Of a stretch of DNA of 29,012 bases, positions 1,716-29,012 are shown in pieces. Position numbers and translations under genes: made by a program. Source of the stretch: a virus; the IMG/VR virus record IMGVR_UViG_3300042314_001117, positions 1 through 29,012 of that record; one strand, given 5' to 3'. Positions within the stretch are counted from its first letter, which is position 1; each line of letters starts with the position of its first letter. Below the pieces are notes generated by a model that had not been told where the DNA came from, ran no database searches, and saw nothing but the letters and a program-made list of their open reading frames with translations.

Positions 1716-4700
1716 ATGCCAATAACAGAAGGCGGAAGATTCGCCCCAACACAAAATATAGTAAGCCCAGGTGTATTCACACGTGAAAATGACCTCTCCG
1801 GTCTGGCTCAAGGAGTAGCAAACATTGGAGGAGCAATTATTGCTCCATTCGCTGACGGACCAGCGTTTTTTCCAAATACAATAACCAGCGTATCCGACTT
1901 GGAAACAAGATTCGGTGTCGCTGATGGTGTGTATTATGGACCATACACAGCGAAAGAATATCTACTACAACAAGGTATAGTTACTATTGTTCGTGTAGGT
2001 GGTCTAACCGGTTACTGGCAAAAGAATCCATTGATTGTATATGCCCAACCAGGTATCTGGGACAGAAACGCTGATAAAGGAGCTATCACAACAGCTTCAT
2101 TTATGTATATTGATACTACTGACTATGTATCAAACGTTAATTATCAACAAACTAGTACCGCTGTTAACATCACTGGTTCGGCTGAAATTAAGGGTTCAGT
2201 AGGCAGTGGTATAACAGGATCAGCTACATTTACGAGAGCAACAACTGCTGAAATTTCATCATATTTAGCTACAGTCGGAAGTGTTACTGGAATCAATGCA
2301 CTTTCAGCTTCTTTGGCAACTTCATCCAGTTTGGGTAAAGTATACAAAGTTGTTTCCACAAGACATTATGAATTGTTTAGCAGCTCTGTTGTTGCCAGAA
2401 ACGGTAAAGTTGCAAAAGCGGGATCTTCAGTAGATCATTCTTTGGCCGCATTTGATTTTGATAAATCGCGTATAAGTGGTAGTGTTACTGTCGGAGGTGG
2501 TGGTTCAAGTAAGTTCAAACTAACATTTGATAGTTCAAACAATAATTACTTAACCGCATCATTTACTGCTCCAAATACATTTGGTTTGGTTTTTGCTAAC
2601 TACGGTGCAAATTCATCATTATCATTTACAACTGCGAGTTTGAGTGGTGCTGGATTGAGTTCTTCAATTCAATTGGTACAACGCATTGATATTTCGACGA
2701 TGACAATCAGTGGATCGTTGAATGTAAAATTCGGATCCGCAGCTGTAACAAGTGGTGTAACTGCAGATGACGCTGACGGTGTAGGTAAGTTAAGTGGTAG
2801 TATCTTGTACGCTAATAAAACAGTTGATATCGGTACAGTTTCTTCTGGGTTATTAGTACGTAAATTTAGTACCGCTACTCTAGCAAATGGTAATGCAAAG
2901 CCAGTTGGTACTAAATTCTTCTTGTTGACATCAAGTTTACAAGGCGCAAATATAGATGCCGAAACATCCGTGGCCACAGCATTTGATGAAAGTACAACAA
3001 CCGTTGATCTAGTAAGTTCATCTTACTTCAATGGTAATATCGCTTACAATTTATCAAACTTCAATGTAGAAGCAGGCACAACACTAACACTACAAAGTGG
3101 TAGTTTCCATTCACTACGTGGTGTTGGAAGTTGTGTAGCCGGTCTACAAGTAATAGGTGTGATAAGTGGTGACTTCGGTAAGTATAGTGGCGCATTTACA
3201 AGTCAAGACAATGCAAGCCCAGATCAATGTAATCCAGTACTAACAGGTCGTCAAAAGTTGATCTTGTCAGTATTAGCAAATACCCAAAATGCTTCTACAC
3301 AATTTAGCAATGATTATGAAGTATACGGATTCAATACCTCAACATTGAGCCAATTGACAAGTAGTACATTCCCATATAAGAATGTAATCGACCCTAATGC
3401 AAATGTTTACAACTTGGCATTAAAGTATAGTTATACAAATACAGCTGGTGGCACAAGTGCTGGTACATATGGTTACTACGACTTCAGTTTAAATGAAAAC
3501 GATAATAACTATATCAAAGACGTATTTGGTATGGATCCAACCGTTGGCAATCCTAATAAACAAGTGGCTGGTCAAAAAGTTGAAGCTGCTTACAACTACG
3601 TTCTATTCGAAGATAGCATCAAGAAGTTCGTAGCTGAAAAGACAAGTGCTTATGGATGGAAACTACAAGTAGGCACAAGCAATCTATCAGGAAGTTCAAT
3701 TGTTGGCGAACCTCTAAAGTTTGTCGATCAATATAGTACTGATTTGAATAACGGCGATAGTCAATTTAGCATCACCAATGCTTCTACCCCTTGGATCTAC
3801 AGTCAAAAGATTGCTCCATTCAAAGGTAGTGCTGATGTAGCCGCTTCACCAACTAAGTTCAAGTTGTTCAAAGTTCACACTTTGAGCGATGGCACACCAA
3901 GTAACACTAAGTTCAAGATTGAAATCAGCAACGTTAAGTTGTCTGGTACTGTCCCAGGCAGTGAATGGGGTAGTTTCACACTATCAGTACGTGCTTATAG
4001 TGATACTGATAAGAAGCCAAAGTATTTGGAAATCTATCAAAACTTGAATTTGGATCCAGAATCCGCAAACTATGTTGCTCGTAGAATTGGTAACAGATAT
4101 GCATATATCACTTATGCTGGTAAAATAATTCAATTCGGTGATTTTACCACATTAAGTAAGTATATCAGAATTGAAGCCAGTGACGTTTCTTACCCAGTAA
4201 GTTGCGTACCATACGGATTTGAATCATATAGTACACCTATTGATAGTACTGCAAGTAGTTATGTACCTGCTATACAATACAGTAAGGCAAGTATCTACGG
4301 TCTAGGGCCTGGTAAGTATCCATCAGGTACAGTATTTGGTAGTGTACCAGGTACTGACACTGAAATTCAAGCTCTATATCCAACATCTTCATTTGGTGTA
4401 GGTGTAGAAAATAACACTAAGCAATACTTCAAGCCATTGCCATACTATGGATCAACTGATAGTAATGGTGCAAATATCGACTTCGATTTAGAAGATAAGG
4501 TATGGGGTACAACAAATAGTAAATTCTATGCTCAGGGTACATACGTGAGTACAGGATCATTACTATCTCCAACATTGAGTGGTAGTATTCCAAGTGTTTA
4601 CGACGCTGTAAATGAATCTACATATGTCAGACTACGTAAGTTCGTACTTGGATTCCAAGGCGGATTTGAAGGTCAATGGCCAGCAATTCCAATCAATGTG

Positions 4701-5630
4701 GGTGGTAATATTACAGCTGGTAATACACAAGGTTTAGATTGTACAAATATCAATAGTCCTGGTAGTATCGCTTATAAGCAATCTATTGCTGCAATCGGTA
4801 ATCCAGATGAATTTGATATCAACTTGATTGTAACCCCAGGTATATTCCGTGAACAACACAGTTATGTAACTGAATTGGTTATCGATATGTGTGAAACTCG
4901 TCAAGATTGTTTCTACATTATGGATAACGTAGTGTTCCCAGCAAGCAATCAAACCGTAGGATTGATTGATGCAGCTATCAACAGTGTAGCCACAATCGAC
5001 AGTAATTATGTAGGTACTTATTATCCTTGGGTTAAGATCCTAGATACTAACACCAACAAGATTATCAATGTTCCTCCTTCAGTGGTATTACCAGCAGTTT
5101 ACGCTGCTAACGATAACTCCGCTGCTGAATGGTACGCTCCAGCAGGTCTAAACCGTGGTGGTATTGCAACCGCTGTACAAGTACTTGATCGTGTAACCCA
5201 CGGTGAACGTGATACGTTGTACGAAGGTCGTGTAAATCCAATCGCAGCATTCCCCGGTCAAGGTATCTGTGTATGGGGTCAAAAGACTCTACAAATCGCC
5301 CCAAGCGCTTTGGATCGTATCAATGTACGTCGTTTGTTGATCAACTTGAAGAAGTTTATCGCAAGTTCAAGCAACTACTTGGTATTCGAACAAAACGTTG
5401 CTTCTACAAGAAATCGTTTCTTGAGTATTGTAACTCCATACTTGGAATCAGTACAACAACGTAACGGTATCTACGCATTCCAAGTCAAAATGGACGATGA
5501 AAACAATACTCCTGACTTGATTGATCGTAATGTTCTTTACGGACAAATCTTCATCCAACCAACTAGAACTGCTGAATTCATTATTCTTGATTTCAACATT
5601 CTACCAACAGGTGCTAGTTTTAGTTCCTAA
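1716..5630 (+). CDS. 18: Tail sheath protein, gp18-like, greatly enlarged
   Basis: This is the subunit of the contractile sheath around the tail tube. The N-terminus (SPGVFTRENDLSG, then a segment with RFG and GPYTAKEYLLQQG) and the C-terminal domain (NVRRLLINLKKFI, NDVLYGQIFIQPT-like end with FIILDFNI) match the conserved insertion and tube-contacting parts of T4-type sheath proteins. The protein is 1304 residues against about 660 for T4 gp18. The extra length lies mainly between about residues 140 and 720 and is very rich in Ser, Thr, Gly and Val with a beta-like pattern, as expected for domains exposed on the outside of the sheath. The frame has no internal stop. An AAAGG lies 11 bases before the ATG. 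It is followed by a strong terminator, so the gene probably forms its own transcription unit, separate from the small genes downstream. Confidence 0.93.
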   Translation: MPITEGGRFAPTQNIVSPGVFTRENDLSGLAQGVANIGGAIIAPFADGPAFFPNTITSVSDLETRFGVADGVYYGPYTAKEYLLQQGIVTIVRVGGLTGYWQKNPLIVYAQPGIWDRNADKGAITTASFMYIDTTDYVSNVNYQQTSTAVNITGSAEIKGSVGSGITGSATFTRATTAEISSYLATVGSVTGINALSASLATSSSLGKVYKVVSTRHYELFSSSVVARNGKVAKAGSSVDHSLAAFDFDKSRISGSVTVGGGGSSKFKLTFDSSNNNYLTASFTAPNTFGLVFANYGANSSLSFTTASLSGAGLSSSIQLVQRIDISTMTISGSLNVKFGSAAVTSGVTADDADGVGKLSGSILYANKTVDIGTVSSGLLVRKFSTATLANGNAKPVGTKFFLLTSSLQGANIDAETSVATAFDESTTTVDLVSSSYFNGNIAYNLSNFNVEAGTTLTLQSGSFHSLRGVGSCVAGLQVIGVISGDFGKYSGAFTSQDNASPDQCNPVLTGRQKLILSVLANTQNASTQFSNDYEVYGFNTSTLSQLTSSTFPYKNVIDPNANVYNLALKYSYTNTAGGTSAGTYGYYDFSLNENDNNYIKDVFGMDPTVGNPNKQVAGQKVEAAYNYVLFEDSIKKFVAEKTSAYGWKLQVGTSNLSGSSIVGEPLKFVDQYSTDLNNGDSQFSITNASTPWIYSQKIAPFKGSADVAASPTKFKLFKVHTLSDGTPSNTKFKIEISNVKLSGTVPGSEWGSFTLSVRAYSDTDKKPKYLEIYQNLNLDPESANYVARRIGNRYAYITYAGKIIQFGDFTTLSKYIRIEASDVSYPVSCVPYGFESYSTPIDSTASSYVPAIQYSKASIYGLGPGKYPSGTVFGSVPGTDTEIQALYPTSSFGVGVENNTKQYFKPLPYYGSTDSNGANIDFDLEDKVWGTTNSKFYAQGTYVSTGSLLSPTLSGSIPSVYDAVNESTYVRLRKFVLGFQGGFEGQWPAIPINVGGNITAGNTQGLDCTNINSPGSIAYKQSIAAIGNPDEFDINLIVTPGIFREQHSYVTELVIDMCETRQDCFYIMDNVVFPASNQTVGLIDAAINSVATIDSNYVGTYYPWVKILDTNTNKIINVPPSVVLPAVYAANDNSAAEWYAPAGLNRGGIATAVQVLDRVTHGERDTLYEGRVNPIAAFPGQGICVWGQKTLQIAPSALDRINVRRLLINLKKFIASSSNYLVFEQNVASTRNRFLSIVTPYLESVQQRNGIYAFQVKMDDENNTPDLIDRNVLYGQIFIQPTRTAEFIILDFNILPTGASFSS

Positions 5631-5651: not shown

Positions 5652-5684
5652 AACCCCGCTTAGAAATAAGCGGGGTTTTTTATT
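5652..5684 (+). terminator. Rho-independent terminator after the sheath gene
   Basis: A perfect 10-base-pair stem (arms ACCCCGCTTA and TAAGCGGGGT) closes a GAAA tetraloop and is followed by a run of T. It starts 22 bases after the sheath stop codon. Confidence 0.93.
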
Positions 5685-5693
5685 TGATGGGTA

Positions 5694-5701
5694 TATTTAT
5701 A
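5694..5701 (+). promoter_or_regulatory. TATTTATA motif 4 nt before an ATG
   Basis: The motif lies between the sheath terminator and the next gene, ending 4 bases before the ATG at 5706. As the first possible start signal after a terminator, it is the best candidate promoter for the 5706-7784 operon. If it acts as a -10 box, the mRNA would be nearly leaderless. Confidence 0.55.
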
Positions 5702-5705
5702 TATT

Positions 5706-5996
5706 ATGATACGACTGACTAAAATCATTGAAGATTTAACCAAACCACAAGTTAAAGAATCAATTGATCCATCCCTATTAATATTAATCGACAGAGTTAT
5801 CACTGATACCAATGTATTAGTGGTTAATAATTTGGAAATGGTAAAAAAAATGTTATCTGAAGGGACTATTGATAAAGCTAAATTGGATGTAGCATTAAGT
5901 AATTATAAGCGTTATTTTAATAGAGATAATGGTGGTACGCCTGAAGTTATACGTGGTATGACTATGCAATCTAAACTAGACCAATTAGCAAAATGA
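5706..5996 (+). CDS. Small protein with capsid-targeting-like N-terminus
   Basis: Product of 96 residues, family not recognised. It begins MIRLTKIIE-D, which fits a short hydrophobic leader ending in [LI]-x-E, the cleavage rule of the T4 prohead protease gp21. The next two genes start in the same way. The rest is charged and predicted mainly helical (IDRVITDTNVLVVNNLEMVKKML, then a Lys/Asn-rich tail). It is the first gene of a tightly packed trio and overlaps the next gene by 4 bases (ATGA), which indicates translational coupling. The inferred role is an internal head protein; no biochemical function can be read. Confidence 0.75.
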   Translation: MIRLTKIIEDLTKPQVKESIDPSLLILIDRVITDTNVLVVNNLEMVKKMLSEGTIDKAKLDVALSNYKRYFNRDNGGTPEVIRGMTMQSKLDQLAK

Positions 5997-6766
5997 TCAG
6001 TTTAACCGATTTATTATTAGAAGCCAAACTTCCTCAGAGCGAGCAAGATATGGATCTTTATGCTCGTAAATACAAAAAAACAATAGATTATTTACGTACC
6101 AAAAACAAAGTACTATTATTAACTACTAGTAATAGATGGAGTGGACATAAAGATGATATTGCTAAAAGTACACAACTTGCATTTAAAATACAAGAATTAC
6201 TTGGTAAAGAAAAAGTAACTTTGATTGATACAACCAAGTTAAACATATTTCCGTGTGAGGGTAACGTATCATCTAAATGGGGAAATCATTGTGGAACAAA
6301 AGATTCTTCATTAAAAGATAAAGAGAAAAATCCTACAGGTGATCATCGTTGCTGGGCTAGTATAAATAATAAAAGTGATGAATTATGGAAAATAAGTAAA
6401 GAATTATTTGAAAGTGATGTCGTTTTATTTTTTGCTAGTGTGAGATGGGGACAAGCCAACGGTTTTTATCAGAAATTAATTGAGAGATTGACGTGGATTG
6501 AGAACAGACATTCTACTTTGGGTGAAAGTAATATAGTAAAAGATATAGATTCAGGATTTATTGCTACTGGTCAAAATTGGAATGGAAAAGATGTTACTCA
6601 AACACAAAAAGAAGTATTACAATTTTTTGGATTCAAAACGCCAAATGAATTATTTTGGAATTGGCAATTTACAGATAATGCTCTTGATGAAACAAAGAGT
6701 TCTTACAAAAAAGCAATTCCTGTATTTGATAAAACATTTTTAAAACCATATGATAAGACTAAATAA
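5993..6766 (+). CDS. Flavodoxin-like NAD(P)H-dependent oxidoreductase with capsid-targeting-like N-terminus
   Basis: Product of 257 residues. From about residue 38 it follows the NADPH-dependent FMN reductase layout: a beta strand and loop KVLLLTTSNRWSGHKDDIAK in the phosphate-binding position, then TLIDTTKLNIFPC, and SDVVLFFASVRWGQANGFYQKLIERL, which corresponds to the segment ending in the flavin-binding loop. Cys88, Cys100 and Cys120 lie where the family often has a Cys cluster, but the spacing is looser than in iron-sulfur flavoproteins. The first residues MISLTDLLLE-A resemble the T4 capsid-targeting sequence (cleavage expected after Glu10). It overlaps the previous gene by 4 bases and the next by 17. 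The substrate is unknown. If packaged, the enzyme would act on the host immediately after DNA entry, which is inference. Confidence 0.8.
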   Translation: MISLTDLLLEAKLPQSEQDMDLYARKYKKTIDYLRTKNKVLLLTTSNRWSGHKDDIAKSTQLAFKIQELLGKEKVTLIDTTKLNIFPCEGNVSSKWGNHCGTKDSSLKDKEKNPTGDHRCWASINNKSDELWKISKELFESDVVLFFASVRWGQANGFYQKLIERLTWIENRHSTLGESNIVKDIDSGFIATGQNWNGKDVTQTQKEVLQFFGFKTPNELFWNWQFTDNALDETKSSYKKAIPVFDKTFLKPYDKTK

Positions 6767-7784
6767 TATATTAAACGAAGTAATTAGTGAAGGCGGTGTT
6801 GGTGGACATATGGCACACCCATTTGATTTTGCCGATACAGGCGCTAAATTGGTAGATGTATTTGCAAAATCAGTTAAATCTTTAAAACAAGGAGCTGGCA
6901 GTGTAAAGATTGACGGTGTTAATGCAAGTATTCGTATGGTAAACGGTCAATTTGTAATGGATCGTGGATCAGCAAAACCGCTTGATATTAAAGGAATGCG
7001 ACCTGAGGACTTACAAACAAGATTTGGAGCTGGTCATGGATTTGTCAATATAGGGGCTAAAGTTATTAATATATTCGACGCAGCAATTTCATCTACACAA
7101 ACTGAGTTAAAGACATTGGGTTTATTAGATAATCCTAATATACTATTCAACATTGAATATGTAGAGGGTCAAACAAATGTACTTGGATATGGAGAAATTG
7201 GAAACTTTTTAGCTATTCACGGGTTAAAAGAAATTAAGCCAAAAACTTTTGGTAAAGATGGAAGTGTTAAATCAAGAGAAGCTGTTGAAATACCGTATGA
7301 TAAAACAGCTATGCAATCTTATATAAACAAATTAAATGTGGTTGCTATGAAGAGTGGTTTTAAGGTATTGGGTAGTGTTGATACTACTTTCAAATCAAAA
7401 CCAAACCTAGCGAGTGTTTTGACGCAATCAGTTACGTTGTATCCCACAGGTGAAGCTGTAACTAAGTCTTTGAAAGACTGGTTAAAAGGATTACAGTTTA
7501 AAACGCCACTGATTACCCGTGAACAATTTTTAAAATCGGTTGATAGTAAAAATATCAGTCAAGATTTTGCCGGTCAAGATGTAAATAAAATAGTTAATGA
7601 TACTATTGTTTATTTAACCACAATTAAATTGGGAGACGAAATATTAAAAAATGCTACCAGTGAAATTGGCGATTTAGAAAAACACGAAGGTATAGTTGTG
7701 AGAGATTCAAGTATTTACAGTGATCCATTTAAAATTACAGGAAGTTTTATTATAAAAGGTCTTGGAAGTAAGTTTAAGAAATAA
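6750..7784 (+). CDS. Ligase-like nucleotidyltransferase with capsid-targeting-like N-terminus
   Basis: Product of 344 residues. It shows the motif order of the covalent nucleotidyltransferase superfamily (ATP-dependent DNA and RNA ligases, capping enzymes): motif I at K53-I-D-G, with Lys53 the expected adenylylation site; a motif III-like LFNIEYVEG (residues 132-140); motif IV EGIVVRD (313-319); and a motif V-like end with K328 and K336. No extra OB-fold domain is visible, so the substrate (RNA nick, DNA nick, protein) is open. It begins MIRLNNILNE-V, again [LI]-x-E. The start lies inside the 3' end of the oxidoreductase gene. In published genomes such proteins may be labelled as kinase or hypothetical; the ligase-like reading rests on motifs only. 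Confidence 0.72.
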   Translation: MIRLNNILNEVISEGGVGGHMAHPFDFADTGAKLVDVFAKSVKSLKQGAGSVKIDGVNASIRMVNGQFVMDRGSAKPLDIKGMRPEDLQTRFGAGHGFVNIGAKVINIFDAAISSTQTELKTLGLLDNPNILFNIEYVEGQTNVLGYGEIGNFLAIHGLKEIKPKTFGKDGSVKSREAVEIPYDKTAMQSYINKLNVVAMKSGFKVLGSVDTTFKSKPNLASVLTQSVTLYPTGEAVTKSLKDWLKGLQFKTPLITREQFLKSVDSKNISQDFAGQDVNKIVNDTIVYLTTIKLGDEILKNATSEIGDLEKHEGIVVRDSSIYSDPFKITGSFIIKGLGSKFKK

Positions 7785-13846: not shown

Positions 13847-14449
13847 ATGAAACAAGTACTGATAGATATTTTACCATTTGAATTTAAAAAAACATCTTTA
13901 AATGAATCTCTTAAAGATGGAAAATTATACGTAACCGGCGTATTACAACGTGCCGACGCAAAAAACCAAAACGGCCGTGTGTATCCAGTAGATGTGTTGA
14001 AGAGAGAAGCTGAGAAATATATGCAAAATTTCGTTAAACAACGTCGTGCTATGGGTGAATTAGATCACCCAGAATCATCTGTTGTTAACTTAAAAAATGT
14101 AAGTCATAATATCGTAGATATGGGGTGGGAAAGTAAAGATTTAGTTGGTACAGTTGAAATTCTTCCTACGCCTAGCGGTAACATTTTAAGAGACTTGCTA
14201 CAATCAGGTATTCTTTTGGGTATTAGTAGTCGCGGATTAGGAAGTGTTAAAAAAGATATGCGTGAAAATGCAGATGTTGTACAAGACGATTTTGATTTAA
14301 TTGCGTTTGATTTCGTAAGCAATCCAAGTACACAAGGAGCTTTTATGTATCCACAGGGAAAAATCAATGAAAGCGTTGAACAAAAAATAATAATTAACCC
14401 ATATAGTAATGTTGAAAGAATTATTCACAACATTCTATCAGAACTATAA
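13847..14449 (+). CDS. 21: Prohead protease, gp21-like
   Basis: This serine protease matures the prohead by cutting scaffold, capsid and internal proteins after Glu in [LI]-x-E contexts, as known for T4 gp21. The 200-residue product has the family pattern: NGRVYPVDVL near the N-terminus, GELDHPESS with the likely catalytic His, ISSRGLGSV with the likely nucleophile Ser, then DFDLIAFDFVSNPST. Length matches T4 gp21 (212). It starts 5 bases after the previous stop. Its specificity is the key to the predicted N-terminal clipping of several other proteins here. Confidence 0.93.
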   Translation: MKQVLIDILPFEFKKTSLNESLKDGKLYVTGVLQRADAKNQNGRVYPVDVLKREAEKYMQNFVKQRRAMGELDHPESSVVNLKNVSHNIVDMGWESKDLVGTVEILPTPSGNILRDLLQSGILLGISSRGLGSVKKDMRENADVVQDDFDLIAFDFVSNPSTQGAFMYPQGKINESVEQKIIINPYSNVERIIHNILSEL

Positions 14450-14457
14450 TATTTATA
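14450..14457 (+). promoter_or_regulatory. TATTTATA motif 4 nt before an ATG
   Basis: The motif begins on the last base of the protease stop codon region and ends 4 bases before the ATG at 14462. Spacing is identical to the copies before 5706, 23332 (minus) and 24712. No Shine-Dalgarno sequence is present. Confidence 0.5.
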
Positions 14458-14461
14458 AAGT

Positions 14462-14884
14462 ATGAAATTAAAACATTTACTGGAAAACTCTACGGAATCG
14501 ACTTATGTCGCTTTGACCAAAGAAGAAAAATCAAAAATGGTCGGGGTTATTAAATCTTACAACGAATATCGTAAAGGATTAAAAGCTGATAGTGTCTATG
14601 AAACAGCACAAAAAATTATGGAAGCTGTTAATTTAGCAGAACGATATGCTATTAAAGAATGTAACGAATGGATGGAAGCTAAAATGGTGGAACGTGATAT
14701 GAAAGAAATCAAACGTGATGCCGCTAAGATGTACGAAGAAGCACAAAAGATGAAAGCTATTGAACAACAACTTGAAATGTTGTATGAACAAGTTGGTATG
14801 AGATTGGAACGTTATTTTGAGATCGCAGATTCAATGAATGAAAATCCACAAACAACCAATGTTAGTACTAACGCATCGGTATAG
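14462..14884 (+). CDS. Small helical head-core protein candidate with capsid-targeting-like start
   Basis: Product of 140 residues, almost entirely helical and coiled-coil-like (many Glu, Lys, Met, Ala), located right after the prohead protease. It begins MKLKHLLE-NSTES, which fits [LI]-x-E cleavage after Glu8. Position, size and composition suggest a prohead core or internal protein comparable in role to T4 gp67 or gp68, but no sequence identity to them is claimed. A Thr/Asn-rich tail ends it. The last 17 bases overlap the convergent gene, and an intrinsic terminator follows 67 bases downstream. Confidence 0.78.
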   Translation: MKLKHLLENSTESTYVALTKEEKSKMVGVIKSYNEYRKGLKADSVYETAQKIMEAVNLAERYAIKECNEWMEAKMVERDMKEIKRDAAKMYEEAQKMKAIEQQLEMLYEQVGMRLERYFEIADSMNENPQTTNVSTNASV

Positions 14885-16064: not shown

Positions 16065-17150
16065 ATGAGCGATCTATTAAAAGAAAGTATTGCGGATGCA
16101 AAGGCTGTTCGTGAAACAGCATTGGCAAATGCAAAAACCTTCCTTGAAGAAAGTTTTGCAAACAGTATGAAAGAAATGTTTGCGGACAAACTCAAAGAAG
16201 AAATGGCAGAAGAATCAACCGAAGAAGAAGAAGGTAAGATTGAAGAAAAGCTTGCATCTTCTAACATTGGTAAAAATGATGGTTTAACAGCTAAGACTTC
16301 TAAGCCAGCAAATCCATCTACACTCAAGTCTACATCTTCAAACGGTAAACAAGAATTTGATGTTAAACTTGAAGAAGAAGCTTCATCTGAAGAAGGCGAT
16401 GAAGTAACTAGTGAAGAACTAGATGAAATTCTAGCTGAATTAGAAGGCGAAGTATCTGACGAAATGCACAGTCAAGGTTCTTCTGAAACACCCGATACAG
16501 GTGAAGAAATGGGCGAAGACATGGGTGATATTAATCTAGACGAACTTCTTGCTGAACTAGAAGCTGAAGATCCTTCTGCACTAGCTCCAGCTCCAGCTCC
16601 AGCTCCTGTTGCTCCTGATGCTCAAGCACCTGTAGATCAAGTACCTGCAGCTCCCGCTCCAGCACAAGTTCCATCTCCTTCTGAAGGAGGATATGCAGAC
16701 GAAGTTTCCGCCGAAGAAATGGCAGAAGCTTTGGTCGCTATCAACGAAGAAAACGAATCTCTTAAGAAACATTTATCAGAAGCTCTAAGCACTGTTAAGT
16801 TTATGAAGGGCGTTCTATCTGAAACCAACCTATTGAATGCTAAGTTGCTTTATACCAACAAGTTGTTCAAAGGTAAGAGTTTAACCGAAGATCAAAAACT
16901 TAAGATCATTAACACTTTCGACTTGACCAGAAACATCCGTGAAGTCAAGTTGGCATATACAGTTTTAGCCGAATCATTTAATTCCGGTGCATCAGTTGTC
17001 AAGAAAAAAACCAATACAACTGCTCACACTATCACCGAAGGTTTGGCAAGCAAACAAGTATCATCAACTAAGCCAGTATCTACTATTGTAGAACCACACG
17101 CTGACGAGATGACTTCAAGATTCCAAAAACTCGCAGGAATCAAGAAGTAA
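16065..17150 (+). CDS. 22: Prohead scaffolding protein, gp22-like
   Basis: This is the internal scaffold that shapes the prohead and is degraded by the prohead protease. The 361-residue product is highly acidic and helical, starts MSDLLKE-SIADAK (an [LI]-x-E site at once), and ends in a conserved-looking helical C-terminus with NEENESLKKHLSEALSTVKFMK, the segment LLYTNKLFKG and a final MTSRFQKLAGIKK. Compared with T4 gp22 (269 residues), it has an extra Glu-rich stretch and an Ala-Pro linker (about residues 168-205, including 6-base GCTCCA repeats near 16584). It stands directly before the major capsid gene, as in T4. Confidence 0.92.
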   Translation: MSDLLKESIADAKAVRETALANAKTFLEESFANSMKEMFADKLKEEMAEESTEEEEGKIEEKLASSNIGKNDGLTAKTSKPANPSTLKSTSSNGKQEFDVKLEEEASSEEGDEVTSEELDEILAELEGEVSDEMHSQGSSETPDTGEEMGEDMGDINLDELLAELEAEDPSALAPAPAPAPVAPDAQAPVDQVPAAPAPAQVPSPSEGGYADEVSAEEMAEALVAINEENESLKKHLSEALSTVKFMKGVLSETNLLNAKLLYTNKLFKGKSLTEDQKLKIINTFDLTRNIREVKLAYTVLAESFNSGASVVKKKTNTTAHTITEGLASKQVSSTKPVSTIVEPHADEMTSRFQKLAGIKK

Positions 17151-17203: not shown

Positions 17204-19042
17204 ATGAGTATGGATATTAAAAGTCTATTGACAAACAATATGAATCCACAGGCCAAATTAATGGCAGAAACACGTGGACTACAAGGCAAATGGGAAAAGA
17301 CAGGCCTCCTAGAAGGTTGCAAAGGTGTTGAAAAAGCACATATGTCAATCCTATTAGAAAATCAAGCAAAACAATTGCTTGACGAAGCAACCACAACTGG
17401 TACATCTACCAGTTCAGAACAATGGGCTGGCGTAGCTCTTCCATTGGTTCGTCGTGTGTTTGCTGAAATCGCTGCGAAGGAATTCGTAAGCGTTCAACCA
17501 ATGAATCTACCATCTGGTCTAATCTTCTATCTAGACTTCAAGTATGGTACTAACGCTCCTGGTTCAGATTTGCGCAACTTGAACAACGGTAGTTCTGTAA
17601 CTACCCGCGCCGGTAAGCAATTGAACGACAGTTTGTTTGGTGGTACAGGCAAGAAATTGGGTTCAACTGATAGCGCAGTACGTGGTTTATACGGCCAAGG
17701 TGCTTTTGCATATTCAGTTCGTCCAGTAAGTAGTTCCGCTATTACAATCACGTATTCATCAGGAGCAACCAATAACGGTGGTACAATTCAAACCGCTTCT
17801 TGGAATGACGTACAATTTGATGCTGAATTGAGTGGTTCCGTGGTAGCTAAGAAATTGTTTAAAGTAATCTTGAATCACGATGATAATAATACCCCTGTAT
17901 CAAGTTACGGAAATCTATACAACGTTGACTTGAATGCAGTGCGTTCATTCAACTTGATCTCAGGTTCAGGTGCGACCAATCCAGGCGCACTCATTAAAAA
18001 CGGTGTGGTGTTGAACACTTACAGCAAAGCGGTCAATACTGGTAGTTTGAGCAATCCATTCTATCAAACTGTATACATCGTATCCGCTTCACAGAGTACA
18101 TTCGCTGGCGCCGCCTCCGGTCCAAGACTTAAATTGATCTATAGTCTACAACCTACGGACAACCTACGTGGTGACTTTGAAGCTGGTAAGACACCAGGTG
18201 AAGGTTCTGGTACAGCTGCTAACGTTGCTACTCAAAGCATCGACACTGATATCAGTATCCCAGAAGTTAACTTGGTACTAAACAGCGAACCAATCGTTGC
18301 TAAGACCCGTAAACTAAAGGCAGTCTGGACCCCAGAATTAGCGCAAGACTTGAACGCATATCACTCTATTGATGCAGAAGCAGAATTGACTGCTCTGTTG
18401 AGTGAATACGTATCTATGGAAATCGATCTAGAAATCCTAGAAATGTTGAACGGTGCCGTTCAAGGTATAACTACCGAAGCTTGGTCCGCCCAAATCGGTG
18501 TTGAATTCAGCAAGGGATTGAATGCAACTACTGGTGACGCAGTATTCACACGTAATGCAAATGCTTCTGCAAATCGTACAGCTTACGTTAAGAGCACTTG
18601 GTTCCAAACTCTTGGTAACAAGATTCAAAAGGTATCTAACACAATCCAAAAATTGACCCTCCGTGGTGGTGCTAACTTCTTGGTCGTAAGTCCAGACGTA
18701 GCAACCATCTTGGAATCAATTCCAGGATATGTAGTAAACACCGATGGTGACAGTGCTAAGTTCGCAATGGGCGTTGCACGTGTTGGTAGCTTCGCAAGTC
18801 GCTTCCAAGTTTACAAGAACCCATATATGACCGATAATATCGTATTGGTTGGTTTCCGTGGAAATAACTTCCTAGAAACAGGCGCAGTATATGCTCCTTA
18901 TATCCCACTAATCCAAACTCCATTGGTCTATGATCCAGTGAACTTCACTCCACGTAGAGGTGTAATGACCCGCTACGCTAAGAAGGTCGTGCGCCCAGAG
19001 TTCTATGGAAAAGTTATTATCGGTGATCTCGATACCGTATAA
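17204..19042 (+). CDS. 23: Major capsid protein, gp23-like
   Basis: This is the HK97-fold shell protein. The 612-residue product shows a removable N-terminal region ending at LLDE61-A62, which fits gp21 cleavage after Glu, then EQWAGVALPLVRRVFAEI and SVQPMNLPSGLIFYLDFKYG, the typical start of the mature T4-like capsid protein. The C-terminal half contains RGGANFLVVSPDVATILE, VYAPYIPL and the segment leading to PRRGVMTRYAKKVV. Length is slightly above T4 gp23 (521), with a Ser/Gly-rich insertion at about residues 160-290. It follows the scaffold by 53 bases with no motif between, so they are probably co-transcribed, and it ends at a strong terminator. Confidence 0.96.
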   Translation: MSMDIKSLLTNNMNPQAKLMAETRGLQGKWEKTGLLEGCKGVEKAHMSILLENQAKQLLDEATTTGTSTSSEQWAGVALPLVRRVFAEIAAKEFVSVQPMNLPSGLIFYLDFKYGTNAPGSDLRNLNNGSSVTTRAGKQLNDSLFGGTGKKLGSTDSAVRGLYGQGAFAYSVRPVSSSAITITYSSGATNNGGTIQTASWNDVQFDAELSGSVVAKKLFKVILNHDDNNTPVSSYGNLYNVDLNAVRSFNLISGSGATNPGALIKNGVVLNTYSKAVNTGSLSNPFYQTVYIVSASQSTFAGAASGPRLKLIYSLQPTDNLRGDFEAGKTPGEGSGTAANVATQSIDTDISIPEVNLVLNSEPIVAKTRKLKAVWTPELAQDLNAYHSIDAEAELTALLSEYVSMEIDLEILEMLNGAVQGITTEAWSAQIGVEFSKGLNATTGDAVFTRNANASANRTAYVKSTWFQTLGNKIQKVSNTIQKLTLRGGANFLVVSPDVATILESIPGYVVNTDGDSAKFAMGVARVGSFASRFQVYKNPYMTDNIVLVGFRGNNFLETGAVYAPYIPLIQTPLVYDPVNFTPRRGVMTRYAKKVVRPEFYGKVIIGDLDTV

Positions 19043-19101: not shown

Positions 19102-19875
19102 CTAATCGAAAAATTCGTTGGTATTTTCTACAACGATTTCTTGCACTTCTTCTTTGAACGAAGTATCTTTGGGATAAGGTAGAACTTTATGTTTAAGAGA
19201 TTTAACCAGTTTCTTATTTTCTATCTTGTTGCTTATAAACTTGATATAACGATGTTTACCGCTTTCACGTTTGCGCCAAAATGTTCTACCAATACGTTCT
19301 TTTAGTTTATCTACACTGTGTGTTTTCCAACGTGCATATACACTTCTACTATGTATCCAATCATATTCAGTGGGGCCAATTAAACTAACACTATAGTTAG
19401 GCATCAGTGCAATATCCACATAGTTATCACCTTGATATACAAATCCAGTTGCTTGATATATTGTTCCAACGTGACCAGCTTCACTATCCGCGTAACTAAG
19501 AATACATTTTATTTGTGGATAATCTGTGTTTAATAATCTAAAACTTTCAGCTATACAATAGCTTTCTATATTTTTACCATAACCATCTGCAATCCACAGT
19601 CGTGTTAATTCCAACACATTGTTATTAGTAAGTAGAGGACATATGCTGGTACTTGCATTTCTACCCACGGCATTTCCATATACTAATACACCTATTAGGC
19701 GTTCGTTAAAACCACCAAAGAATGTGCTTTCAATATACTCTTTATAATAAACTCCATAAGCTACAGTACAAAGAGACCATTTGTGTGTATAATGGTTTTT
19801 TTCAATAAGAGTTTTTGCAACATTCTTATTGATACTTTTGAGATAAAGCAATGAGGTATCACAATATTCGGACAT
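19102..19875 (-). CDS. Mom-like DNA modification protein (GNAT-type fold)
   Basis: Product of 257 residues. It resembles the phage Mu Mom family, which converts adenine in DNA to N6-(methylcarbamoyl)adenine and shields it from restriction. Family features visible: IEKNHYTHKWS near the N-terminus, GVLVYGNAVGRN (62-73), ELTRLWIADGYGKNIES (89-105), and SYADSEAGHVGTIYQATGF (127-145). Unlike Mu Mom it carries a basic C-terminal extension of about 80 residues that could bind DNA. It is the last gene of the leftward cassette, starts 38 bases after the 70-aa gene, and has its own sigma70-like sequence. ATG at 19875 is the only reasonable start. The exact modification and the sequence specificity cannot be read. 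Confidence 0.85.
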   Translation of the reverse strand: MSEYCDTSLLYLKSINKNVAKTLIEKNHYTHKWSLCTVAYGVYYKEYIESTFFGGFNERLIGVLVYGNAVGRNASTSICPLLTNNNVLELTRLWIADGYGKNIESYCIAESFRLLNTDYPQIKCILSYADSEAGHVGTIYQATGFVYQGDNYVDIALMPNYSVSLIGPTEYDWIHSRSVYARWKTHSVDKLKERIGRTFWRKRESGKHRYIKFISNKIENKKLVKSLKHKVLPYPKDTSFKEEVQEIVVENTNEFFD

Positions 19876-19912: not shown

Positions 19913-20125
19913 TTATATTAAATAAAACAAGCCTTTTGAATTATAAACTACAATTCTGATCTTGGTATCGTTATCTTTAATGATACCGAGTTTATCTGAA
20001 ATTTGAAATGGACCTGGATGATTACTTGTACGTACACCCATTACTTTATCTTTTATTTTATATACATCCAAATCTGTATTAACAACACTTGCGTGATATT
20101 GTCTTCCCAAAGGTATCATTTTCAT
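19913..20125 (-). CDS. Small hypothetical protein coupled to the cyclase gene
   Basis: Product of 70 residues, family not recognised. It is predicted to be mostly beta (YHASVVNTDLDVYKIKDKVMGVRT; TKIRIVVYNSKGLFYLI). Its ATG overlaps the stop codon of the cyclase gene by 4 bases, so the two are probably translated together. There is no signal peptide or membrane helix. It may be a partner or regulator of the cyclase, which is inferred only from coupling. Confidence 0.68.
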   Translation of the reverse strand: MKMIPLGRQYHASVVNTDLDVYKIKDKVMGVRTSNHPGPFQISDKLGIIKDNDTKIRIVVYNSKGLFYLI

Positions 20126-21900
20126 AATGGTTTATTTGTTGTTGGTTCTGCTTTTTTTACTCTACTTGATGGAAATTCTTTGTTACCAAACTCGGTACCG
20201 TGTAAACTGTACAAATGCATTATTACACCGTGTTTTACAATTACATCCCCCAAATCATTTACCAAAACGTATGCTGGTCTATCATATTTCAACATTACAG
20301 CTGAACTAACTAATAAATGATTTGTTTCACCCGCATCCATTACTCTTTGAGCATAATTGATTCCATCACCGCTTATATTAAGATTTCCATTGATATCTTC
20401 CATTGGAATTACAGGTCCACAGTGTACACCCATTCTCATTTGTAAGTCGGGTCTATCTTTTACTGCTTTAGCTATAGCAACGGCACAATTCATTGCATCT
20501 TCTAGATACGTGAAAAATCCCATTACCATACCATCTCCGGTGGGTAATATAATCAACTTTTCAAGAGCATTAGCTGTTTTATATTGCATTGTAGATTTAA
20601 CTAGTGTACCCAAGTCTTTACAAGCCTTCTTTTGTTCATCTGTGGTTTTTTTACTGTAAGCCACAATATCCATAAAGAATATGAAACCTTCTTGTTCAGT
20701 ATCTAATTGTAATCGTCCTGATTTGACTTCCACGTCGATCTTGTCAACTTTACGAACTATTTGTTTAACTGGTTTTGGTACTTCAACCTTTGGTTGTTCT
20801 TCTTTCTTTTCTACAACCGGCATATTCTTTAATTTTAAAAAGTCTTTCCAGTTAATCTTTTTTGTTGGTGCATCTTTCTTTTTTGGTTCTTTTGCAGTCT
20901 GTTCTGCTTCTAGTTTCTTTATTGCTTCTTCTTCACGATTGCGTTTTTCAATGAATAACGCAATTTGTTTCTTAACTTCATCTGTAATATAAATGTTTAC
21001 ATCTTTACCATTACCACCCGTATCGTGTTTCTTCTTTCTTAAAGCACCTTTGGCTTGTAAATAACTTTGCATTTCTACATTGCCTGTCTTGAATGCAATG
21101 TCTAACGGAGCAATTTCTCCCTTAAAATCTGCACCATTAACATTTGCACCCAAATGTACCAAAAACTCCGTCATATCAACATCGTTAGCATTAACGGCGT
21201 AATGTAATGGCATCCATCCATTCTTTTCATCTCTACCATTAATTTTACCGTCTTTATCAAAAAATGACTGTACACCTTCAAAATCACCGGTTTCAGCACA
21301 AAAATGAATATTAACACCACCAGCAGATTTAGCGCCATTTTTATTTAACAACTTAACAATTTCACCTCTATTAACATTGGATAACACATCTATTGGATTG
21401 TTTTTACCTAAGAAATCTTTCTTGTTGACATCAGCACCTTTAACAATTAAATATTCAACCAAATGTTTTTGTCCATAATTAACCGCATAGTGTAGTGCTG
21501 TCCAACCTTTACCAGCGTCAACTTCATTGATATCTTGTTTTTTACTCAACATTTCTTCAATAGAAACAATATCACCATTCTTAGCAGCCAAATGAAAACT
21601 GCTACCACTACTATATTTTGCACCTCGACCTTGCAATAATTCTGAAATGTGTTTAAACCCTTTTTGTTCAGATATATCTAATGCAGTATTTTTGCTTGTC
21701 CAATCTTTTACATTTACATCGGCGCCACGATTTAATAACAATTTGACTATTTCTATTTGATTTTCTTCTACTGCAACAACCAATGGTGGATTGCCGGTAT
21801 CGTCATCTCTCTGATTAACGTCTATTTTTTCTTTTTCGATGCAATTGTATACGTTATCATACAACCCTCGTTTAATGTGGGTAAAAATATTGATTGCCAT
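20122..21900 (-). CDS. Ankyrin-repeat class III nucleotide cyclase
   Basis: Product of 592 residues with three parts. Residues about 35-290 are ankyrin repeats (for example PPLVVAVEENQIEIVKLLLN; GWTALHYAVNYGQKHLVEYL; GWMPLHYAVNANDVDMTEFL). Residues 290-395 are a charged Lys/Glu/Pro linker with a possible coiled coil. Residues 400-575 are a class III nucleotidyl cyclase domain: FIFFMDIVAYS with metal ligand D411, ILPTGDGMVMGFF with second metal ligand D456, MRMGVHCGPV, and SGDGINYAQRV with the N515-x3-R519 pair that stabilises the transition state. The catalytic set is complete, so activity is likely. The two purine-selecting positions hold L452 and N508 in place of the Lys/Asp of adenylate cyclases, so the product (cAMP, cGMP or a pyrimidine cyclic nucleotide) cannot be assigned. 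It follows the MscS-like gene by 7 bases and overlaps the next gene by 4. Confidence 0.92.
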   Translation of the reverse strand: MAINIFTHIKRGLYDNVYNCIEKEKIDVNQRDDDTGNPPLVVAVEENQIEIVKLLLNRGADVNVKDWTSKNTALDISEQKGFKHISELLQGRGAKYSSGSSFHLAAKNGDIVSIEEMLSKKQDINEVDAGKGWTALHYAVNYGQKHLVEYLIVKGADVNKKDFLGKNNPIDVLSNVNRGEIVKLLNKNGAKSAGGVNIHFCAETGDFEGVQSFFDKDGKINGRDEKNGWMPLHYAVNANDVDMTEFLVHLGANVNGADFKGEIAPLDIAFKTGNVEMQSYLQAKGALRKKKHDTGGNGKDVNIYITDEVKKQIALFIEKRNREEEAIKKLEAEQTAKEPKKKDAPTKKINWKDFLKLKNMPVVEKKEEQPKVEVPKPVKQIVRKVDKIDVEVKSGRLQLDTEQEGFIFFMDIVAYSKKTTDEQKKACKDLGTLVKSTMQYKTANALEKLIILPTGDGMVMGFFTYLEDAMNCAVAIAKAVKDRPDLQMRMGVHCGPVIPMEDINGNLNISGDGINYAQRVMDAGETNHLLVSSAVMLKYDRPAYVLVNDLGDVIVKHGVIMHLYSLHGTEFGNKEFPSSRVKKAEPTTNKPL

Positions 21901-23374: not shown

Positions 23375-23442
23375 CTCAAAGAAAAGTATAACCGTGTAAT
23401 AAAAGGTAACGGCAGTTGAAAAGTAAGAATAACAAAACACAT

Positions 23443-24672
23443 ATGAAATTAATCGATTTGCTAACCGAAGTTAAAATGTATGAAAGTCTAGGATTACCAG
23501 CATCGGCTGTACAGTCATTAGATTCATTTGTTGCACAAGAATTAGACGAAGCTGATATGTTAGGCGCTGGCACCACAGAATTGCCATCCGATGAATTACA
23601 AGGATATTTAGACAGATCGGCCGGTCAACCTGCAGTTTATAAGAAAACTGGATTGCCTAAATTGGATAAAAAAGGTAAACAAAAGTATACTACTACAAAA
23701 GATCCAACTGATAAATTCAAGTATCCATATGTACATCCAAAGCTTGCCAGAGAGATACAAATTGTAGATCCAAGTGGCCGTAGGTTTGATTTAAACAAAC
23801 TAAAAACCCATATCACCACACGTCCTGATAAGATTTTAAAACAAAATGAAAAAATTTCACACAGTGGCGGTGAAAGTACTCAGTTTTATAATATAGGATT
23901 GCCAGCTTTACAAGGACTTGGTTATGACGAAAAGAATCAAAAATTTGTTATCATAAATACGTGTCCAGGCGCAGGTGCATGCAAAGTTTATTGTTATGCT
24001 AAAAAAGGCGGTTATGTACAATATGTACCAGTTAACACATCGCAAACAAGACAACTTAACTTTTTGTTGAACGATCCGGATGGTTATAAAAATATGTTAT
24101 CAAACGAAATTCGTGCAGCAGTTGAAAAAAATTCAAAGAAAAATGTAAAAACTGTGATTAGATGGCATGATTCAGGCGATTTCTTTAGTCCTGATTATGT
24201 AAACCTAGCATATAGTGTTGCAAAAACATTTCCCAACGTAGACTTTTATGCTTATACTAAAATGGCAGATGTGGCTAAAGGTGATAAACCAGTCAATTTC
24301 AAGATGAATTTTAGTGCGGGTGCAAAACCTGATCAAGAAAAACAAGTCGATTTTAAAACAACTAAACATTCAACTGTAGTACCAAAGCAAATGTTTGCTG
24401 ATTTAGTTGATAGAGAAGAAGTACCAGATCCAGATAAGCCAAATAAAACAATTAAAAAGTTGGTTTATAAATCCCCATCCGCTATTGATATTTTAAAGAA
24501 AAAGTTAGCATTAAAGTATAATGTTTCTGAAGACAGTGTCATTACCTACGATGAAATGATGAAAATTCCTGTGGGAGATAAACCAAAGTGGAATGTTATA
24601 GTTAAACCAGGTGACGGCGACGATAGTGCAAATAGAGCAGATGTAGTGGGTACTTGGTTATTAATCCACTAA
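23443..24672 (+). CDS. GP88-family phage protein with capsid-targeting-like N-terminus
   Basis: Product of 409 residues from the ATG at 23443; an in-frame TTG at 23416 is less likely because the ATG start gives the MKLIDLLTE-V leader seen in other genes here. The body has the pattern I associate with the phage GP88 family: INTCPGAGACKVYCYAKKGGY (Cys174, Cys180, Cys184) and VIRWHDSGDFFSPDYVNLA (about 238-256), then FPNVDFYAYTK. The clustered Cys residues and the HDSGD segment suggest metal or cluster binding and catalysis, but no activity is known to me. The leader fits cleavage after Glu9 by the prohead protease, so the protein may be packaged in the head. It sits between the accessory cassette and the neck genes. 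Confidence 0.8.
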   Translation: MKLIDLLTEVKMYESLGLPASAVQSLDSFVAQELDEADMLGAGTTELPSDELQGYLDRSAGQPAVYKKTGLPKLDKKGKQKYTTTKDPTDKFKYPYVHPKLAREIQIVDPSGRRFDLNKLKTHITTRPDKILKQNEKISHSGGESTQFYNIGLPALQGLGYDEKNQKFVIINTCPGAGACKVYCYAKKGGYVQYVPVNTSQTRQLNFLLNDPDGYKNMLSNEIRAAVEKNSKKNVKTVIRWHDSGDFFSPDYVNLAYSVAKTFPNVDFYAYTKMADVAKGDKPVNFKMNFSAGAKPDQEKQVDFKTTKHSTVVPKQMFADLVDREEVPDPDKPNKTIKKLVYKSPSAIDILKKKLALKYNVSEDSVITYDEMMKIPVGDKPKWNVIVKPGDGDDSANRADVVGTWLLIH

Positions 24673-27973: not shown

Positions 27974-29012
27974 ATGTCAACATTGAAGAAAGATCCATGT
28001 GAAGTTTCTCCATTAAAATTGGACAATGCTTTGTATGACTACAAAAAATTAACAGCGACTTTTAAAGATCCTACTACACCACTGTTTCTTAAAATAATCG
28101 AAGAATTACGTGTTATTATTAATTGTAATGCCAATTTACAAAAAAATACACAGTCTATACAAGAATTTCCATGTGATTCAAAAACAGATACATGGGTATA
28201 TAATCATAATTTAAATTCGGAATTTGTATTGTTCATTGTATATGATCAAGATTTAAATCAAATAATACCTGAAAGCATAACTTTAAACAATAAAAACACA
28301 GCCACAATAAAATTCTCATTTCCTGCATGTGGTTATGTTTTTGCTATAGGTAGTAATGTAAGTACAAGTGGTATATCTGGCACAGGCACAAGTGGTAGTA
28401 GCGGTCAAAGTGGATCTAACGGAACAAGCGGAACAAGCGGAACAAGCGGTACTAGCGGAACTAGTGGCGAAAGCGCATTAAGTGGTACTAGTGCTACTAG
28501 TGGTAGTAGTGGTGAAAAAGGTTCATCTGGATCAAGTGGTACTAGCGGAACGAGTGGATTTAGCGGAACGAGCGGAACTAACGGAACTAACGGAACAAGT
28601 GGTACAAATGGAACTAGTGGATCTAGTGGTACAAGTGGATCCAGTGGTACAAGTGGAAGTAGTGGTAGTAGTGGATCTAGCGGATCTAGTGGTACAAGTG
28701 GTACAAGTGGTACAAGTGGCGAAAGTGGAACTAGTGGTACAAGCGGATCTAGTGGTACTAGCGGATCAAGTGGAACCAGTGGATCTAGTGGATCTAGTGG
28801 ATCTAGTGGTACAAGCGGATCTAGTGGAACCAGTGGAACTAGTGGAAGTAGTGGAAGTAGTGGAACCAGTGGAACTAGTGGAAGTAGTGGAACCAGTGGA
28901 ACCAGTGGAACTAGTGGAAGTAGTGGATCAAGTGGAACCAGCGGAAGTAGTGGATCTAGTGGATCTAGTGGTACAAGTGGAACAAGTGGAAGTAGTGGTG
29001 AAAGTGGTACCA
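27974..29012 (+). CDS. Collagen-like tail fibre or adhesin protein (3' truncated)
   Basis: The frame is open from the ATG at 27974 to the window end (346 codons visible). Residues 1-75 are helical (DNALYDYKKLTATF; LFLKIIEELRVIINCN). Residues about 77-130 form a beta domain (TWVYNHNLNSEFVLFIVYDQD, then ITLNNKNTATIKFSFPACGYVFAIGS), a type found near the base of phage fibres. From 28370 the chain becomes a Gly-X-Y repeat, with X mostly Thr or Ser and Y mostly Ser, broken by a few Gly-to-Ala changes and by the odd unit GTG. It has no proline, unlike true collagen. The position after the neck genes supports a fibre or whisker role. The C-terminal, receptor-binding part is outside the window. Confidence 0.85.
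   Translation, partial: MSTLKKDPCEVSPLKLDNALYDYKKLTATFKDPTTPLFLKIIEELRVIINCNANLQKNTQSIQEFPCDSKTDTWVYNHNLNSEFVLFIVYDQDLNQIIPESITLNNKNTATIKFSFPACGYVFAIGSNVSTSGISGTGTSGSSGQSGSNGTSGTSGTSGTSGTSGESALSGTSATSGSSGEKGSSGSSGTSGTSGFSGTSGTNGTNGTSGTNGTSGSSGTSGSSGTSGSSGSSGSSGSSGTSGTSGTSGESGTSGTSGSSGTSGSSGTSGSSGSSGSSGTSGSSGTSGTSGSSGSSGTSGTSGSSGTSGTSGTSGSSGSSGTSGSSGSSGSSGTSGTSGSSGESGT
28370..29012 (+). repeat. Gly-Thr-Ser / Gly-Ser-Ser coding repeat
   Basis: More than 200 codons of degenerate 9-base units (GGTACAAGT, GGATCTAGT, GGAACTAGT, GGAAGTAGT and variants) in one frame. Synonymous codons alternate and no unit is long enough or spaced like a CRISPR repeat. The array continues past the window edge. Confidence 0.95.

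Follow-up and report, generated by a model that had tools for sequence, protein, structure and literature searches.

Several phages send proteins into their own heads by means of N-terminal signals. In phage T4, the internal proteins IPI, IPII and IPIII and the protein Alt carry a short capsid-targeting sequence (CTS), with hydrophobic residues at positions 4, 7 and 8 and a Glu at the cut, which is removed from unrelated protein bodies by the prohead protease gp21. Passages on mutagenesis of the IPIII leader state that residues 4 and 7 target the protein, that residues 8 and 10 are needed for processing, and that Asp at residue 10 blocks cutting while targeting is kept (PMC9026906). In the different phage group of P1, an N-terminal signal, of which the first 30 residues suffice, sends the large internal protein DarB into the head (as described in part of PMC9024508; the likeness to our case is one of description). 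The inner head proteins of SPN3US and phiKZ have N-terminal propeptides that are removed by a prohead protease, but these often exceed 100 residues and have other cleavage motifs (passages of PMC5694885). Here we analyze a virus record of 29,012 bases, IMGVR_UViG_3300042314_001117 (the whole stretch is referred to as the window), in which five unrelated proteins start with leaders resembling those of T4. Judging from its head and tail gene content, the window comes from a distant relative of T4, a phage of the far-T4 type with an uncultured host; the nearest isolates by gp23 are Microcystis phage Mel-JY01 and Flavobacterium phage immuto (~50% identity).

The leaders are MIRLTKIIE (5706..5732, Glu at residue 9), MISLTDLLLE (5993..6022) and MIRLNNILNE (6750..6779) on three consecutive genes, and MKLKHLLE (14462..14485, Glu at residue 8) and MKLIDLLTE (23443..23469) on two others, all on the plus strand. 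The leaders at 5993 and 6750 have exactly the spacing of the IPIII leader, and the lead-in at 23443 is one residue shorter; this last leader is read from an ATG at 23443, inside an open reading frame opened by a TTG at 23416. All five are 8-10 residues long and close with [LI]-x-E, with the Glu at residue 8, 9 or 10, and the next residue is Asp (5706), Ala (5993), Val (6750), Asn (14462) or Val (23443). Unlike the T4 sequence MKTYQEFIAE, the leaders of this group start mostly with MI or MK and contain Leu. An earlier interpretation (the sequence-only reading) had proposed CTS-like leaders on three consecutive non-structural genes and like leaders on unrelated bodies at 14462 and 23443, and the translations bear out all five starts. 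Its common form, M-[IK]-x-L-x-x-[IL]-[IL]-x-E, fits the products of 5993 and 6750 but not those of 5706 and 23443 (one residue shorter) or 14462 (two shorter). The label non-structural is also loose, as the trio lies between the tail sheath and terminase genes, and 14462 between the gp21 gene and a gp22-like gene. The sharing of a leader by five unrelated bodies is real and beyond chance. We put the probability at roughly three in four that the leaders are CTSs of T4 internal-protein type, cut by gp21, on cargo packaged in the head; spacing, conservation, the protease, the capsid-protein site, movement of the leader, a late-promoter-like element ahead of two of the five genes and a virion precedent, all compared at the level of sequence, favor this part of the earlier proposal.

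In alignments, the conserved leader positions are those that target and process the T4 leader. Among 19 sequences related to the 5993 protein (reductase-like, see below), M1, I2, L4, L7, L8 and E10 are invariant, while residues 3, 5 and 9 vary. For the 6750 protein (ligase-like), the comparison took in 31 sequences from 80 loci, without the displaced copies L033 and L038; none departs from I7, L8 or E10, and L4 is almost always kept. The position just ahead of the Glu holds Asn, Ser or Thr in the ligase-like and Leu, Ser or Asn in the reductase-like proteins, and such a free position next to an unvarying Glu has the pattern of a protease site. Two reductase-like leaders (L271 and L277) contain an inserted Gln, yet L-Q-E is kept. 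The [LI]-x-E ending is retained in 17 of 18 distinct N-termini for 5706, 17 of 17 for both 5993 and 6750, seven of seven for 14462 and five of five for 23443; in these counts some contigs appear twice, and matches without an ATG in place (2, 5, 1, 0 and 0, respectively) were dropped. One of the 17 ligase-like N-termini, MIKISKLLVSLFEN, fits the leader only loosely. The DNA encoding the ligase-like N-termini occurs as 32 distinct stretches in 77 loci (L030, L033 and L038 left out), with up to six codons per conserved residue. Because the codons vary synonymously while the residues stay, the constraint acts on the protein.

Leaders were counted in the window, in seven related contigs and in ten named phages. 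Genes were called there as open frames read from their first ATG, a procedure that may miss or mis-set starts. The IPIII-type motif (hydrophobic residues at 4 and 7, Leu or Ile at 8, Glu at 10) was taken from a T4 review of IPIII mutagenesis. It was written after the first hit list was known, as were the forms R3 and R4 and a loosened version of the sequence-only form, in which one x is optional so that all five window leaders fit. The IPIII-type motif opens 22 of the 671 proteins of the window and its seven relatives (a count that includes orthologs; contig G009 repeats the genes of the window) compared with 1 of 2,176 internal methionines, and 200 rounds of shuffling the N-termini gave a mean of 0.89 and a maximum of 4. 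The loosened form is found in most members of 9 of 211 families (literal form, 4 of 211) and follows none of the 2,176 internal methionines. With the five window families removed (all members found by phmmer), it opens 9 of 634 proteins versus 0 of 2,176 internal methionines; the IPIII spacing gives 6 of 634 versus 1 of 2,176. Three of the nine held-out matches belong to one family. The others include a Mom-family protein, a basic protein, a diverged GP88 protein (G004 88573), a protein that inherited the ligase leader (G006 67188), one that is fused to a 5706-type protein in G001 (G018 9246) and one that looks accidental (G004 5870). In the named phages, the IPIII-type motif is modestly enriched in immuto (3/218), Mel-JY01 (3/231) and T4 (4/250), where two of the matches start with MKTYQEFIAE, one with MKTFKEFIKE and one, which we take to be the shell protein gp24, with MAKINELLRE↓S (arrows mark known or putative cuts). 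A bare [LI]-x-E near the N-terminus is weakly enriched (21/211 families versus 141/2,176 internal methionines, p=0.043), and a scan by offset position gave no clear peak. As a leader rule it was too weak, and the IPIII-spaced motif was therefore adopted in its place.

Gene comparisons in the relatives show the leader to move between protein bodies as a cassette. Two paralogs in G006 have bodies identical at 115 of 141 positions and leaders identical at 3 of 15 (6 of 15 when right-justified). In the same contig, the former start of the ligase-like gene now heads a zinc-finger/HNH-like insert (67188; Pfam ROS_MUCR 22.9 bits, below the family cut-off, and HNH-like by eye), and the ligase-like protein has another start. 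G004 88573 and the GP88 protein of the window share 33 N-terminal residues (E 7e-6); phmmer gave no significant match between their bodies, though both match the GP88 model. A Mom-family protein of G001 carries a leader (Pfam E 1.1e-24), and the Mom protein of the window has none. The leader-bearing proteins of relatives comprise this Mom-family protein, the zinc-finger/HNH-like insert, and basic and uncharacterized proteins.

The window encodes a protease that would cut such leaders, a gp21-type prohead protease of the Peptidase_S77 family (13847..14449, plus strand; Pfam E 1.3e-28, PHROG 207 E 9.3e-53). S77 proteases were found in 18 of 20 related records and in all eight T4-type phages searched. 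The major capsid protein gp23 (17204..19042, plus strand; Pfam Gp23 E 1.1e-72) contains by alignment a candidate gp21 site, QLLDE↓A, with the Glu at residue 61; the propeptide of T4 gp23 is given as 65 residues (PMC5694885, in part). The site is kept in all seven gp23 sequences of the group and reads LISE↓A in Mel-JY01 and IVSE↓A in immuto. The GP88 proteins of Streptomyces phage Gilgamesh and mycobacteriophage D29 have annotated starts without a leader, and no S77 match was found in these two records, a silence that is not proof, although the same model did match T4-type phages. The GP88 protein of the window exceeds theirs in length by far more than the leader. In one relative (L314 47-1828; G007 74300-76300) the gp21 protease itself holds an intein with a LAGLIDADG domain (Pfam Intein_splicing E 9e-11), located right after the motif GELDHPE.

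A precedent for a leader-bearing enzyme in virions comes from cyanophage S-SM1. Its cytidylyltransferase T4-GC190 was reported from purified virions in 2010, in passages that do not mention a leader (PMC3037559). The S-SM1 record labels gene 190 as the T4-GC190 cytidylyltransferase, and the product starts with MKKFSAFLNE↓AERSF, a leader of IPIII type. We inspected ten GC190 starts (six from among 532 matching records, and four other records), and six have the form M-[KR]-x-F-x-x-F-L-x-E↓A (S-SM1, Syn9, S-MbCM6, ACG-2014d, ACG-2014f and MA10). The S-CAM9 start contains I-L-E↓G, and in S-8S56 the same kind of string lies upstream of the annotated start. The Melnitz-3 counterpart starts with MKKFSEIIE↓A, and an HTVC008M protein, cytidylyltransferase-like by eye, with MKTLKELLRK, lacking the Glu. 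T4-GC190 belongs to an enzyme family different from those in the window. Its gene adjoins a gene for a KWDG (DUF6267) protein, and the link to the window is a fusion in Mel-JY01, a 639-residue protein that starts with MGKLINILLSE and has first a CTP-transferase domain (Pfam 21.1 bits, cut-off 21) and then a 6750-type domain. A literature search found, among the titles listed, none on CTS leaders in cyanophages or metagenomes, which does not show that the matter is unpublished; a search for Mel-JY01 and DUF6267 found no paper.

The virion report also bears on the strongest alternative, namely that the leader docks proteins on the prohead core for a part in assembly only, and that the tagged assembly factors are then cut up or leave the head. 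Gene 14462 does sit among head genes, the presumed T4 gp24 shows the same pattern, and leaders in which Asp replaces the Glu could dock uncut, as reported for IPIII. We nevertheless regard this alternative as unlikely, as flavin-reductase-like and GP88 bodies would be unexpected in assembly factors, and purified virions are reported to contain the GC190 enzyme. Still less probable is an unrelated short amphipathic helix that resembles a CTS and serves, for example, to bind a membrane or some host or phage protein in the infected cell. The link between leader and head does rest on sequence comparison, which leaves room for such a helix, but the conserved positions equal those mapped for IPIII, the free residue before the invariant Glu resembles a protease site, and none of the proteins called in SPO1 (0/187) or N4 (0/70) starts with the motif. 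Finally, a chance likeness of N-termini or a DNA-level constraint at translation starts, for which the weak enrichment of bare [LI]-x-E might speak, can be dismissed as highly improbable given the held-out excess of the sequence-only form and the variable codons behind constant residues.

Several observations weigh against reading the leaders as CTSs. For the proteins of the window itself we found no homolog detected in virions, the GC190 starts of P-HM1 and 121Q have no leader, and only two of eight inspected DUF6267 neighbors (those of Melnitz-3 and HTVC008M) have a leader-like start. MAFFT places the LLDE↓A of gp23 in a different column from the LTE↓A of T4, the immuto site has Val where Leu or Ile is expected, and the gp23 alignment has no standout [LI]-x-E site in RM378, HTVC008M or Melnitz-3. 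With a looser spacing of 9-11, the held-out excess is weak (9/634 versus 11/2,176, p=0.02), and the IPIII-spaced motif is not enriched in KVP40, Syn9, HTVC008M, Melnitz-3 or RM378. Neither IPI nor Alt is presumably among the four T4 matches. One 5706 variant, MIRLKSILATAKQEN (5 matches), has lost the leader Glu, the G001 44881 family has Asp there in two of its five members, and the displaced ligase-like copy in G006 starts without the leader spacing.

Reading the leaders as CTSs, we hypothesize that the tagged proteins are made late in infection and dock on the prohead core by their 8-10 residue leader, that gp21 cuts after [LI]-x-E as the head matures, and that the mature proteins stay in the head beside the DNA, with which they probably pass into the next host. 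Judged by the comparisons above, head targeting of the leader proteins and cutting by gp21 after the leader Glu are each likely, and injection into the host is plausible; for the window proteins themselves, we infer docking, cleavage, packaging and injection from their sequences. The cargo of the group would comprise a flavin-reductase-like enzyme, a ligase-like protein, a GP88-family protein and a core-like protein, with Mom-family and other proteins in relatives. The mechanism is already known from T4, and what is new is the enzyme cargo and the moving cassette: unlike the T4 internal proteins and Alt, the cargo here, as predicted from the genes, includes flavin-reductase-like, ligase-like and GP88 proteins. 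At odds slightly better than even, we speculate that far-T4 phages of uncultured hosts possess an exchangeable CTS cassette by which differing enzymes (flavin reductase, ligase-like, GP88, Mom-family, cytidylyltransferase) are loaded into the head. On this view a host would meet pre-made metabolic and DNA-acting enzymes, to which the 'structural' cytidylyltransferase of cyanophages would also belong. The leader would then provide a sequence rule for predicting virion-borne proteins of uncultured T4-like phages, bring enzymes into a class represented mostly by small internal proteins and Alt, and offer an explanation for the enzyme reported in cyanophage virions in 2010.

The first protein of the trio has 96 residues (5706..5996, plus strand, an open frame); it matches no PHROG at E 1, and Pfam gives a chance-level match (E 0.09). 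The second (5993..6766, plus strand; 257 residues) was called an oxidoreductase in the sequence-only reading, a label that draws support from the fold of a low-confidence model and none from sequence profiles. Its AlphaFold2 model (mean predicted local distance difference test score 57, predicted template modeling score 0.63) resembles flavodoxin-fold NAD(P)H:FMN/quinone reductases, with Foldseek E 3.3e-5 and template modeling scores of 0.44-0.48; comparison by VIA gave Z 13.1 and a root-mean-square deviation of 3.3 over 146 aligned positions. Flavodoxins and flavin or quinone reductases make up most of the fold matches listed. The protein matches no Pfam or NCBIfam family and one PHROG at E 0.15, has no homolog in the phage collection at E 1e-3, and gave one chance-level chain in a PDB sequence search. 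As there is no sequence-profile match, we file the body as fold-like, predicted to be a flavin-reductase-like enzyme, and not as a member of a reductase family.

The third protein of the trio (6750..7784, plus strand; 344 residues) has the KxDG-type motif VKIDG at residues 52-56, kept in 31 of 31 sequences, and matches Pfam RNA_ligase at E 0.13. A distant relative lies within the 639-residue Mel-JY01 protein (26.8% identity, tblastn E 2e-4, hmmsearch E 1.1e-9), the one record of the phage collection with a homolog. We call the body ligase-like because of the KxDG motif and this distant relative. Structure and profile comparison lend the label, already given in the sequence-only reading, no further support: the poor model (mean score 56) has a best fold match of E 0.31, which is not significant, a PDB sequence search with the profile was empty, and comparison by hhalign with DUF6267, the KWDG proteins of cyanophages, was not significant (P-value 0.013, probability 3%). 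A second I-x-E↓GG, with x being Gln, Ser, Lys or Arg, follows the ligase-like leader at residues 12-14 (6783-6791 in the window) and may be a second cut. Likewise, IAE↓GG occurs between the two domains of the Mel-JY01 fusion (11243), near residue 240, as another possible second cut.

The 14462 product (14462..14884, plus strand; 140 residues), placed by alignment and gene order between gp21 and the gp22-like gene, is by its position a putative prohead core protein. The 23443 product (23443..24672, plus strand; 409 residues) belongs to the GP88 family (PF17338, E 3.2e-33, residues 147-319). A suspected resemblance of the VYRG family to ADP-ribosyltransferases was dropped, as searches of Pfam, PHROGs and NCBIfam were empty.

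A late-promoter-like element, TATTTATA, found by motif count, lies 4 nucleotides before the ATG of 5706 (5694..5701, plus strand) and of 14462 (14450..14457, plus strand). In G001, 21 of 117 genes have it upstream on the coding strand (0.8 expected), and it stands before 5 of 13 leader families and 31 of 198 others (p=0.05). The T4 late promoter is TATAAATA (NATAAATA and TATAAATA are printed in PMC2984593, in the part available); TATAAATA lies upstream of 19 of 240 T4 genes (1.0 expected) and is also the enriched form in KVP40, HTVC008M and Melnitz-3. The TATTTATA upstream of the trio would fit late expression. The element is strand-specific and, as ATATTTAT(A), stands ahead of many start codons in the group (8 of 25 genes in the window, 0.3 expected), and 88 of 134 sites end 4-6 nucleotides before the ATG (loci L082-L121 and L132-L151). 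Its sequence corresponds to the T4 late promoter in reverse complement, and in immuto and Mel-JY01 it is present at looser distances from starts. AGGAG shows no enrichment in the group, and the element may be a late promoter whose mRNAs are nearly leaderless.

The trio genes overlap one another, with the start of 6750 inside the end of 5993, and lie between the tail sheath gene (1716-5630; PHROG 23; product of 1,304 residues) and the terminase gene (8407), behind a terminator-like hairpin and T run seen by eye (5652..5682, plus strand). The best sheath-profile stretch is confined to residues 969-1303 of the 1,304-residue sheath protein. The gp22-like scaffold (16065..17150, plus strand) was assigned by position and by aligned similarity to immuto and Mel-JY01; its product matches no Pfam family. 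The scaffold C-terminus, RFQKLAGIKK (17118-17147), is closely matched in the scaffold genes of these two phages, and the immuto protein 111675 has RMQKLAGI near its N-terminus, so that a scaffold-type peptide may be a second core-docking peptide. The Mom-family DNA modification protein of the window (19102-19875, minus strand; PF25680 E 1.8e-44) adjoins gp23. The gene at 20122-21900 (minus strand) combines ankyrin repeats with an adenylate/guanylate cyclase domain (PF00211, 23.4 bits, cut-off 21.9), and the gene beginning at 27974, which continues past the end of the window, contains a long tract of GTSGSSG-type repeats (28400-29012).

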